From the NCBI GenBank assembly GCA_023954155.1, contig JAMLIO010000002.1, positions 1 through 64,000 of the forward strand: a stretch of DNA of 64,000 nucleotides, given 5' to 3'. Below, piece after piece: positions 1-58,980 of the stretch (positions are counted from its first letter, which is position 1; each line of letters opens with the position of its first letter). The notes beneath the pieces were generated by a model that was not told the origin of the DNA, did not search any database, and was given only the letters and a program-made list of their open reading frames with translations. Both the position numbers and the translations under genes were made by a program. The stretch is from Pseudobdellovibrionaceae bacterium (lineage in GTDB: Bacteria; Bdellovibrionota; Bdellovibrionia; Bdellovibrionales; UBA1609).

Positions 1-92
1 ATATATGGTCGAAATGCGAGTTCGGCTTGGCATTCTTTTGCGAACGCAAAAGCATGCCAAACGTCACTGTCTGAGCATTTTGAGTATATATA
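1..92. repeat. Hairpin repeat core, copy 1
   Basis: First of four copies of a roughly 92-bp imperfect palindrome with TATATA ends. The tip is a TTTTGCG/CGCAAAA stem, flanked by TTGGCAT/ATGCCAA and by an outer stem that needs one G-U pair. In this copy the base pair below the T4 run is C-G. The left flank is outside the window. On the right, a coding stop codon at 109 leaves no room for the long arm seen in copies 2 and 3. It lies just 3' of the minus-strand L,D-transpeptidase-like gene, so it may sit in that gene's 3' untranslated region. Confidence 0.85.
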
Positions 93-54195: not shown

Positions 54196-56079
54196 ATGTC
54201 GGTTCGATATTTTTTTATTGCTTTGTTCTTTTTTAACACAGCCCTTGGTCTAATGAGTGTCGCACACGCCTCTCCAAAAACTACTCCTGCCGCAGAATGG
54301 GACCTCACAGATTTAGTCAAAAATGAAAAGCAATGGACTGGGCAAGTGGAGCAGATCGAAAAACAGATTCCCACACTTGGAAAGTGCCAAGGCAAGCTCA
54401 CGACAAGTGCTAAGCAGCTCGCAACGTGTTTAGATTTACAATATGGTCTGTATCGCAAAACGGGTCGAACTTGCTCTTGGGCATTTTTAAAACAAAGCAC
54501 AAATCATCTGTTAAGTAAAAATACCGCTCACGCTCAAAGATGTCAGAATCTTTTTGCAAAGATCTTTGAAGAGAGTAGTTTTTTTGAACCTGAGATAGTT
54601 CAAGCAGGAACCACAAAGATTCAAGGTTTTGTACAAAACGAAAAAGCTCTTGAACCTTATTCGCAAATACTCAGACGAACATTAGATCAAGGAGCTCATG
54701 TGCTTTCTTCTTCTGAAGAGGCTCTTATTGGTGCTTTAAGTCCGTCGCTCAGTAAATCTCGCGAGACTTTTTCTTTTTTATTAAATACCGAAATGCCATG
54801 GTCCAAAGTGAAAATGAGTGACGGCGTTCAAGAGATCAATGTGGCGGGATACACCAAGTACAGAGGCTCTTCTCATCGTCCTGATCGACAAGCCGCCTTT
54901 CAAAGTTTTTACTCCACCCTCTCACAATTTGAACGCACTATGGGGTCTACATACGCTCAAACTGTGATCACCAGAAATACGTTAGCGCGATTAAAAAAAC
55001 ATAAGAATGCACTTTCTGCAGCGCTAAGTCCTCAGCAGATTCCCGAAGCCACTTATCGTAAAATGATTCAAGAGGTGAATAAAAGTCTTCCCACACTTCA
55101 TCGTTATCTTCAACTGCGCGGAAAAATGTTAGGGCTTAAAAAACAAGAGTACTTTGATGCTTATCCCACTGTGATCAAGAGTCCAAAGACGTTTCCTATT
55201 GCCGAAACTCAAAAGATGACTTTGGATGCTGTCAAACCCTTAGGCACAGATTATGTGACAAAAATCACTGAAGCCACTTCTAAAAACTGGATGAGCATTT
55301 ATCCTAGCAAAGGTAAAAGCAGTGGCGCGTTTATGTCTAGCAATGCTTATGATGTGCATCCTTATGTGTTTCTTAATCATCAAGATGACTACAGTTCTGC
55401 ATCCACCTACGCCCACGAATGGGGGCATGCTTTACACTCTATTCTTAGTAATGCCCACCAGCCTTACGCCAAATCTCGTTACTCGATCTTTATAGGAGAA
55501 ATCGCAGCCATCACTAATGAAGTCTTATTAAATGATCATGCTGTTAAGACAGCGCAGTCTGATGAAGAGCGACTCTATTACCTTAACGAAGCTTTAGAAT
55601 CTTTGCGTACTACTTACTTTCGACAAGCTCAATTTGCAGAGTTTGAACTCGCGGTACATGAAATTGCTGCCAAAGAAGGAGCCTTAACGGGGCAAAAGAT
55701 CAGCGAAGTGTACGGTGACATTCTCAGACGCTACTATGGTCACAACAAAAAAGTCATGAATGTCGATCCTCTTTATTTCAAAGAATGGATGTTCGTCCCC
55801 CATTTTTACGGCGGATTCTATGTGTATCAATACTCCACCTCTATGGCAGGAGCCTATTATTTTGCCGATCAAATCCTAGCAGGAAATAAAGACGTATTAA
55901 ATAAATATTTACAAGTACTAAAAGCTGGAGGATCCAAGTATCCCCACGAAATTTTATTAGACGCAGGCTTGGACTTGTCCAATTCAACTCCATATAAAAC
56001 ATTGGACAAAAGAGCCAACCAACTTATGGATGAAATGGAAGTCCTAATCAAAAAAGTAGAACTCAAAACCCGCACCTGA
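54196..56079 (+). CDS. M3-family oligoendopeptidase, exported
   Basis: Zinc oligopeptidase of the PepF/M3B type, 627 residues. The catalytic motif is TYAHEWGHALHS (H407, E408, H411) with the Glu ligand in the next helix (SIFIGEIAAITNEVLLND). The M3 N-terminal helical clam-shell is visible before it. Unlike cytoplasmic PepF, this one has a signal peptide (YFFIALFFFNTALGLMSVAHA), so it would cut peptides in the periplasm. GGAGGTCTGG precedes the ATG. It is convergent with the 56350 gene; the shared 3' region is the long inverted repeat at 56100-56332. Confidence 0.94.
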   Translation: MSVRYFFIALFFFNTALGLMSVAHASPKTTPAAEWDLTDLVKNEKQWTGQVEQIEKQIPTLGKCQGKLTTSAKQLATCLDLQYGLYRKTGRTCSWAFLKQSTNHLLSKNTAHAQRCQNLFAKIFEESSFFEPEIVQAGTTKIQGFVQNEKALEPYSQILRRTLDQGAHVLSSSEEALIGALSPSLSKSRETFSFLLNTEMPWSKVKMSDGVQEINVAGYTKYRGSSHRPDRQAAFQSFYSTLSQFERTMGSTYAQTVITRNTLARLKKHKNALSAALSPQQIPEATYRKMIQEVNKSLPTLHRYLQLRGKMLGLKKQEYFDAYPTVIKSPKTFPIAETQKMTLDAVKPLGTDYVTKITEATSKNWMSIYPSKGKSSGAFMSSNAYDVHPYVFLNHQDDYSSASTYAHEWGHALHSILSNAHQPYAKSRYSIFIGEIAAITNEVLLNDHAVKTAQSDEERLYYLNEALESLRTTYFRQAQFAEFELAVHEIAAKEGALTGQKISEVYGDILRRYYGHNKKVMNVDPLYFKEWMFVPHFYGGFYVYQYSTSMAGAYYFADQILAGNKDVLNKYLQVLKAGGSKYPHEILLDAGLDLSNSTPYKTLDKRANQLMDEMEVLIKKVELKTRT

Positions 56080-56099: not shown

Positions 56100-56332
56100 C
56101 TTGCTTTTTTGTGTCCGAAGTTTGGATTGATTTTCAATTTGGATTTGGAACTTAGAACTTGAATTTTCGTATATATACTCAAAATGCTCAGACAGTGACG
56201 TTTGGCATGATTTTGCGTTCGCAAAATAACGCCAAGCCGAACTCGCATTTCGACCATATATACGAAAATTCAAGTTCTAAGTTCCAAATCCAAATTGAAA
56301 ATCAATCCAAACTTCGGACACAAAAAAGCAAG
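56100..56332. repeat. Long inverted repeat with hairpin core, copy 2
   Basis: Left arm 56100-56177 and right arm 56257-56332 are reverse complements over about 76 bp without mismatch. The centre (about 56169-56264) is the shared 92-bp hairpin core, here with an A-T pair below the T4 run. The outermost bases of both arms are CTTGCTTTTTTGTG; on the right this belongs to the hairpin and T tract of the minus-strand terminator, on the left it is the same sequence inverted. The whole 233 bp can fold as one hairpin between two convergent genes. Confidence 0.97.
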
Positions 56333-56346
56333 CTTATGCTTGCCGT
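56318..56346 (-). terminator. Rho-independent terminator
   Basis: On the minus strand GGCAAGC-ATAA-GCTTGC is followed by TTTTTTGTG, directly after the stop codon of the 56350-57597 gene. Its 3' half lies within the right arm of the inverted repeat. Confidence 0.85.
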
Positions 56347-56349
56347 TTA

Positions 56350-57597
56350 TCAGTTGGGGTAGCCGTAAAATTCTGTGCAGCGAGTGCGTGCGGAATTTGA
56401 GAGGCCCCATCTTAGGCTTTCATTGTCATTCGGGTGGAAGGAGATTTTGCCTGCGAAGAGTCCTTGTTTGAAACTAGCTAAATTGACGTCTCCTGCTCCT
56501 GTTTTTACTGGGCAGGCTTTATAGACTTGTTGTGCCTGCGATCCTGAAATTGTGCCTTTGGCGAAAATTACGGAAGCGTTTTTAAATAAAGTGGCGTCTA
56601 CTTTTGCGCTTTGATTTTTTTGTACGATAGAAGCGTAATCTAATTCGAAGTTGCGATAGTTGTCTCTGATTCCGCTATCACGGCTTGGGGTGGAGTAGGT
56701 GTCATACTCTTGGTAGTTTAAACATCTACCTCCTACACCTCTGACAAACTTCACAGCATTAGTGACAATGCTCACTCTATCTTTGACTTCGTTGCAAATA
56801 GTATCAAAATTTCTTTTGGTCATCATATTTGGAGACTCAGTTACAGTTTGATGAATGCGTCTGACTTCTCTGAAAAACCCGATTTGACCTAATTTTTGGG
56901 CTAGGCTGTACTGGCTAAAATCCGCAAAATTTAAACTTTCTTGGGCAACACTAGCAAAACTTGGCAGTTTAGCGCGACGAAATCCCCAATGGTTTTTATC
57001 TACGCCTCCGTTGAGTGGCGCTTTAGTGAACATATAACTTTTATGACGGTTTAAAGGCAGACCCTTGTGCATGCGATCTTGTGTAGAGTAAAGCACATCA
57101 AAAGTTCCATCCACGTTAATGTTCTTCACGATATAAGTATGGCGAGTAAAATTCCCGTTTGTTCCCACTTTATACATAAATAAATCCCCAGGAGCGACTT
57201 CACGAACGGCTATCGGATAAGTGTCTTGATGAGCTAGACTTTCTGTCCCTAAACTTGAAGATAGAAAGTTAATAAACGCCGCGATCTTTTTGTCTCCACT
57301 AAGATGATTAAATCTGGTAGTGGCATTGGTGATCTTGCCCCCATTGACCGCAAAGTCTAAACCATTTTGATAAGAGAAATACACTTTTAAAGCGTAGTGG
57401 GCATCGGCACAGTCCATTTTTAACTTGGCGTACTCTCCACCCAGTTCTTTAAAAAACTGTGGCCCCACTTTGCTGGCAATCCACTGGGCATATCGATCTT
57501 GCCATACCGAGTTCCAAGATTTTTGCGCCACCCAAACTTGAGCTTGAGCAGAAAGTGTAAAGAATAATACGGTGAGAAAAAATATCACTTTTTTCAT
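56350..57597 (-). CDS. Secreted Cys/His hydrolase-like protein
   Basis: Family uncertain. Signal peptide (VIFFLTVLFFTLSAQA), then a domain that resembles papain-fold amidases such as NlpC/P60: KMDCADAHYALKVYF near residue 62 (possible nucleophile Cys), VAPGDLFMYKVG (a common strand) and FTRHTYIVKNI near residue 152 (possible His). The C-terminal 200 residues, with Cys pairs (TICNEV, GGRCLNY, KACPVK, TRCTEF), are helical and unassigned. If the Cys/His pair is real it could cut peptidoglycan peptides. It overlaps the upstream gene by 4 bp and ends with a strong terminator. Confidence 0.6.
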   Translation of the reverse strand: MKKVIFFLTVLFFTLSAQAQVWVAQKSWNSVWQDRYAQWIASKVGPQFFKELGGEYAKLKMDCADAHYALKVYFSYQNGLDFAVNGGKITNATTRFNHLSGDKKIAAFINFLSSSLGTESLAHQDTYPIAVREVAPGDLFMYKVGTNGNFTRHTYIVKNINVDGTFDVLYSTQDRMHKGLPLNRHKSYMFTKAPLNGGVDKNHWGFRRAKLPSFASVAQESLNFADFSQYSLAQKLGQIGFFREVRRIHQTVTESPNMMTKRNFDTICNEVKDRVSIVTNAVKFVRGVGGRCLNYQEYDTYSTPSRDSGIRDNYRNFELDYASIVQKNQSAKVDATLFKNASVIFAKGTISGSQAQQVYKACPVKTGAGDVNLASFKQGLFAGKISFHPNDNESLRWGLSNSARTRCTEFYGYPN

Positions 57598-58265: not shown

Positions 58266-58410
58266 TGTTTCCCCCAAAAACTACGTCCACGACTACCATC
58301 CTCCTAAATGAAGTCAACCGCCCCAAAGCCACTCATCATAGTTATAGAAAAAATTACCCACCCCTAACAGATTCTTAACCCACTTTGAACCGCTTTCACG
58401 TTCGGATGGC

Positions 58411-58633
58411 CTTTGTATTGTGTGTCTTTGTGAATTTGGTTTGGAATTTAGAATTTAGAATTAAAATTTGAAGATATATACTCAAAATGCTCAGACATGA
58501 CGTTTGGCATGATTTTGCGTTCGCAAAATAACGCCAAGCCGAACTCGCATTTCGACCATATATCTTCAAATTTTAATTCTAAATTCTAAATTCTAAATTC
58601 CAAACCAAATTCACAAAGACACACAATACAAAG
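58411..58633. repeat. Long inverted repeat with hairpin core, copy 3
   Basis: Left arm 58411-58478 and right arm 58562-58633 are reverse complements except that the right arm has one extra 7-bp unit in a (TAAATTC)n stretch. The centre is the shared 92-bp core, in the same orientation as copy 2 and with the same A-T pair, but missing two bases in the lower stem. The arm sequence differs clearly from copy 2. It lies about 145 bp upstream of the 58265 gene, in a region without other genes. Confidence 0.95.
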
Positions 58634-58886
58634 CCCTATCAACATTCAAGCACTCAAACGAGATACTTCACTAAAAAATAAATCTTCCTACAATAATGAA
58701 AGTAATGACCGAATACTAGATTTTCTTTTGATCAAAATACAAGGAAAGATCGGTAGCGCTTTTTTAATAAGTCATGATGATGAGTAAGCATCATTCCGCA
58801 CCAACAGATCAATAAACTTATTCCTAGCCTCATTTGTCTGGGGTTATTGAGTTTGAATTTGAGCTTAGATTTTAGAGTTAGAATTC
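58634..58886. other. Spacer between repeat copies
   Basis: No credible gene. A 23-codon minus-strand frame ends in this stretch (NEARNKFIDLLVRNDAYSSS) and could be a decayed protein end, but nothing else supports it. The last 40 bases (TTTGAATTTGAGCTTAGATTTTAG...) resemble the inner arms of copies 2 and 3. Confidence 0.5.
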
Positions 58887-58980
58887 ATATATATGGTCGA
58901 AATGCGAGTTCGGCTTGGCGTAGTTTTGCGAATGCAAAGCTATGCCAAACGTCACTGTCTGAGTATTTTGAGTATATATA
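58887..58980. repeat. Hairpin repeat core, copy 4
   Basis: Fourth copy of the 92-bp core. The tip stem carries compensatory changes (G-C below the T run where copy 2 has A-T and copy 1 C-G; A-T at the next pair where the others mismatch). A left flank similar to the arms of copies 2 and 3 is present, but the right flank has no complementary arm and passes directly into the 3' end of grxB. Confidence 0.93.

Follow-up and report, generated by a model that had tools for sequence, protein, structure and literature searches.

Dispersed palindromic repeats are found in many genomes, and several kinds have been described. REP/BIME/REPIN repeats, which are associated with RAYT (Y1) transposases, are many short palindromic intergenic copies, often near gene ends and some in inverted pairs. 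MITEs (miniature inverted-repeat transposable elements) are likewise dispersed, have inverted repeats and lack coding capacity. Integron attC sites are imperfect hairpins with conserved boxes and variable parts, and numerous long perfect inverted repeats have been described as coding palindromes in the mitochondria of Nematomorpha (PMC6649704). Furthermore, quasipalindromes are corrected by replication template switching (PMC7202029, PMC8604942, PMC8794818), a process that leaves homogenised arms, mirrored changes and inverted spacers; homogenisation of arms and spacer inversion have been described in yeast (PMC8604942), and the creation and repair of stems in RNA genes (PMC8794818).

Here we analysed a hairpin element in a window of 64,000 nucleotides from a Pseudobdellovibrionaceae bacterium (assembly GCA_023954155.1, contig JAMLIO010000002.1, positions 1 to 64,000). 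An earlier note had proposed that two copies in this window, numbered 2 and 3, carry a common core inside nearly perfect arms that are private to each copy, and had offered as alternatives either selection for a long hairpin or conversion of one arm by the other. We confirmed the observation. The arms of copy 2 (56100-56187 / 56245-56332) are 88 nt long and 97% complementary around a 57-nt centre, and the sequence folded as RNA gives -154 kcal/mol with z = -24. The arms of copy 3 (58408-58472 / 58572-58636) are 92% complementary, with one extra 7-nt unit (AATTTAG) on the right arm, and its fold gives z = -19. The cores of the two copies are 99% identical, and two further copies lie in the window. 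The features are as follows.

1..90 (-): copy 1, core at the very start of the contig, 97% identical to the core of copy 2; the outer arm beyond position 1 is missing
54196..56079 (+): neighbour gene, oligopeptidase F-like (Peptidase_M3), ending about 20 bp before copy 2
56100..56171 (+): copy 2, left private arm, pairing with 56263-56332 without mismatch over its length
56172..56262 (+): copy 2, shared core (TATATA...TATATA)
56186..56200 (+): box A of copy 2 (GCTCAGACAGTGACG), 5' side of the conserved internal loop, conserved across genera and found in the genome only inside elements
56201..56233 (+): inner stem and tip of copy 2, variable with paired (two-sided) changes between copies
56234..56246 (+): box B of copy 2 (AAGCCGAACTCGC), 3' side of the conserved internal loop
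56263..56332 (+): copy 2, right private arm
56327..56344 (-): terminator-like stem of the minus-strand neighbour, whose 3' half and T-run form the outer end of copy 2's right arm
56350..57597 (-): convergent neighbour gene (415 aa; weak Amidase_6 match below cut-off)
58408..58474 (+): copy 3, left private arm
58475..58563 (+): copy 3, core
58564..58636 (+): copy 3, right private arm, one AATTTAG unit longer than the left
58888..58978 (-): copy 4, core; its two flanks do not pair with each other

Two points require correction. The earlier note had described the arms of copies 2 and 3 as sharing only isolated words, but they give a 31-column alignment with a few differences, and arms of different copies are weakly but significantly alike in general (24 pairs at score >=22 against 3.5 in dinucleotide shuffles, with a maximum of 10 in 60 shuffles). 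In addition, the left arm of copy 4 matches the right arm at the start of another contig of the assembly, C10, so that the contig is probably misjoined there, or two elements recombined at their cores. Copies 2 and 3 are not such misjoins, because their own arms match each other. At least eight contig ends of the assembly fall in or within 1 kb of an element (C2:1, C5:756-839, C7:6, C7:145962, C8:15, C9:236, C10:1 and C13:114), as expected if the hairpins break short-read assembly. One of these, at C5:756-839, is a core that has become a near-perfect palindrome of its box B half, with box A lost, which is either a template-switch product or an assembly error near a contig end.

The 91-bp core has about 40 copies in the 2.44-Mb genome of the window (G000 hereafter), each with its own arms. 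In 33 copies with complete flanks, left and right flanks are about 80% or more complementary at nearly every offset from 6 to 37 bp from the core, and below 50% beyond about 46 bp. Median arm length outside the core is 39 bp, with a range of 27-92. Mean identity between copies is 0.94-0.98 in the boxes, 0.79 in the inner stem and 0.44 in the arms. The 5' arm of the hairpin is T- and G-rich in G000 (T 0.42, G 0.23, A 0.20, C 0.16), so that strand composition switches at the centre of each element. Boxes without hairpins were not seen in the genome, apart from contig-end halves, so that there was no sign of a parent element with separated ends.

A covariance model of the element matched 39 of 141 genomes of the Bdellovibrio order, in 26 of 66 genera, and in 192 genomes drawn from the phylum all matches were inside the order. 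These matches include low-scoring hits: of 40 regions read, 37 had a palindrome and 3 did not by an ungapped test, so that the genus count is approximate. A pattern scan of a 257-Gb genome collection listed Bdellovibrionales, Bdellovibrionaceae, Bdellovibrionia and Oligoflexia records. No sister species was found by searching for the exact core in collections of genome and viral contigs, from which records of the window's own genome may be left out. What is conserved between families is an asymmetric pair of unpaired boxes (TCAGACATGCG / CCGAACTCG), whereas the inner stem and outer arms are free to change; the common design is box A, TC(A/G)(A/G)ACATGCG, facing box B, CCGAACTCG. The smallest cores are about 27-30 nt, and arms reach up to about 130 bp. 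Four loci have two concentric elements, all in opposite orientation, and elements often come in inverted pairs about 250-450 bp apart, plus strand then minus strand, as at 58475 (+) and 58888 (-) of the window and in other genomes (G075, contigs C44, C56 and C178; G089, C131; G007, C73). In one locus (G027, C39) an element is followed by a second copy of its right half only, arm included, and in another (G133, C260) the tip of the hairpin carries a second palindromic repeat, GTCATTCCGGCGTAGGCCGGAATC.

The element was then compared with each of the described systems. Unlike in REP/REPIN repeats, here the centre is conserved and the arms are private. No Y1 transposase (PF01797) was detected in G000 or in eight other copy-rich genomes (G123, G125, G013, G133, G134, G001, G017 and G075), and the feet of the hairpins are private sequences instead of the GTAG-type tetranucleotide that REP palindromes would be expected to carry; membership of REP/RAYT is not supported. 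With MITEs the element shares insertion, since the tRNA locus of genome G052 and the rpoD locus of genome G031 lack the element in relatives. In the relative G124 an outer inverted repeat bounds the unit, whereas in G000 the arms are private and only weakly related between copies. However, the arms are not a fixed family sequence but evolve in step within each copy, and no parent transposon was identified, although of transposases only Y1 was searched. In contrast to attC sites, the conserved boxes, GAGTTCGG and TGTCTGAG, are at the centre, the outer ends are private, and the probable R-box consensus GTTRRRY is not matched. The palindromes of Nematomorpha are mitochondrial and inside genes, and do not appear to be a dispersed family with a conserved core. 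Template-switch correction has been described for scattered sites or RNA genes; here it appears to act along a whole dispersed family. Rfam gave only sub-threshold microRNA-type hairpins and chance hits, and we found no paper describing this element, in agreement with the earlier note, which knew of no described element with this design.

To distinguish between selection and conversion we used close paralogues, since no close strain was available; G123 and G124 have only about 70% nucleotide identity, too far for an arm-by-arm test. Genome G124, of the same family, is a fragmented draft with over 100 copies, in which the hairpin lies in a larger unit with outer inverted repeats and two unlike spacers. 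In 26 type-I copies, arms differ between copies by 0.16 per site and spacers by 0.13 and 0.22, but the two arms of one copy differ by only 0.011. Copy-private states present on both arms number 11 (7 transitions, 4 transversions), against 9 one-arm mismatches, whereas shuffling right arms among copies gives 0.43 on average, with a maximum of 4. The 16 type-II copies give 5 against 0.31, with a maximum of 4, and six of the 16 changes in the two sets are transversions. Furthermore, five copies have the core inverted relative to the spacers. In G000, arm mismatches are 17 G-U-like on one strand, 16 on the other and 22 transversion-type, so that no strand is favoured. Two-sided pair changes number 198, with few one-sided ones. 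Taken together, this is hard to reach by compensatory mutation and fits arm-to-arm copying.

Some arms run into host sequence. In one locus (L022) the arm covers the last 28 bp of a sodium:neurotransmitter symporter gene (PF00209), and the mirror image ends just short of the neighbouring gene; three other loci (L013, L017 and L037) show overlaps of 36 (decayed), 22 and 19 bp. Elements at tRNA ends have the CCA end in one arm and its inverted copy in the other (loci L366, L119 and L129), with element-free orthologues in the genus Bdellovibrio for L366. In the rpoD-tRNA spacer, G031 has the element between the stop codon and a terminator, while its congener G083 has a similar terminator and no element. 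The extensions into coding sequence and tRNA ends rest on short stretches, but they are expected from palindrome growth at a resident site. Against this, in G124 and G013 arms are recognisably shared between copies, so that arms also travel with the element. The palindrome nuclease subunit SbcD (TIGR00619) was not detected in any of 37 genomes of the order, with or without elements, while 13 of 14 control genomes gave a match. This could allow long palindromes, but does not explain which genomes have them.

The explanation that we consider more likely than not is that these are copies of a dispersed intergenic hairpin element whose arms stay matched because, during replication, the nascent strand of one arm folds back, or crosses to the sister, and copies the other arm. 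This would erase one-arm mutations or mirror them, lengthen the palindrome into neighbouring genes and tRNA ends, and occasionally invert the core. Long palindromes may be tolerated because SbcCD, which cuts such hairpins in other bacteria, was not detected in this order, as judged from the SbcD subunit. Of the two alternatives in the earlier note the results favour conversion, although selection is not excluded as the reason the boxes persist. Elements elsewhere keep their arms. Conversion in place is nevertheless inferred from paralogues rather than strains, and homogenisation at each transposition would leave a similar pattern. A weaker inference is that box-carrying units spread as a non-autonomous mobile element that settles next to gene ends and in the tips of other hairpins. 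A tentative and more radical possibility is a class of mobile element whose only inherited information is an unpaired two-box internal loop, which spreads by placing that loop at hairpin tips and gene ends, and whose arms are built and continually rebuilt from local DNA by template switching: a self-perfecting palindrome in a bacterial order that appears to lack SbcCD.

Other explanations appear less likely. Arms might be made fresh at each transposition, if the mobile form is a hairpin with one arm as template and the two arms later drift apart. The core and, in G124, the spacers and outer inverted repeats are multi-copy, within-copy mismatches are few and element-free orthologous sites exist. 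However, this reading, which we regard as doubtful, needs nearly all of the ~40 G000 copies, including ones with diverged cores (L036 and L040), to be recent; arm ends that match neighbouring CDS and tRNA ends point to copying at the resident site, and there is no transposase candidate, Y1 having been the only one searched. A structured RNA, transcribed in 3' untranslated regions, with boxes that bind a protein and arms kept paired by compensatory mutation under selection, seems about as unlikely. It would agree with the strong covariation, with the conservation of the boxes across families and with the preference for gene 3' ends in G000 (12 copies between convergent genes, 15 mixed, 3 divergent). 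Furthermore, outside G000 the arm mismatches lean to G-U on one strand (22 against 9, with the same lean in the arm comparison of G124), so that an RNA role is not excluded. On the other hand, G-U pairs are no commoner on one strand in G000, transversions are present both among mismatches and among copy-private changes on both arms, arms evolve as fast as spacers, the adjacent genes in G000 lie on either side of the core with no evident strand bias, and a crude count in G124 showed no preference for 3' ends.

Bidirectional transcription terminators or a chromosome-organising protein site, selected to be perfect palindromes because both strands are read, would account for the position after stop codons and tRNA ends in G000, G031 and G103. 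We consider this improbable, since in G031 the rpoD gene has a separate terminator beyond the element, copy 2 abuts a separate terminator-like stem, many orthologous sites lack the element, and G124 copies also lie between divergent genes by a crude ORF count. Finally, an artefact of assembly or whole-genome amplification producing inverted duplicates is suggested by the contig ends that fall in elements and by the apparent misjoin at copy 4. It is rejected for the family, although not for copy 4, because the same design occurs in a single-contig 2.66-Mb genome (G031) and in a 3.26-Mb contig (G076), with conserved boxes across families; several genomes besides G124 are, however, fragmented drafts.

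The mechanism invoked here is known, whereas no description was found of the family on which it appears to act. These elements give many natural, parallel records of palindrome maintenance per genome, in which one-arm, two-arm and flipped states can be read side by side, so that the rate and direction of template switching relative to point mutation can be measured without reporters. If mismatches arise at rate 2u and are removed or mirrored at rate c, a standing level of 0.011 gives c of the order of 100-200 u, and we infer that arm copying occurs at roughly 100-200 times the per-site mutation rate. The apparent absence of SbcD from the order makes the role of that nuclease directly testable. 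The elements also warn that paired changes in a stem, usually taken as proof of RNA function, can arise without it.
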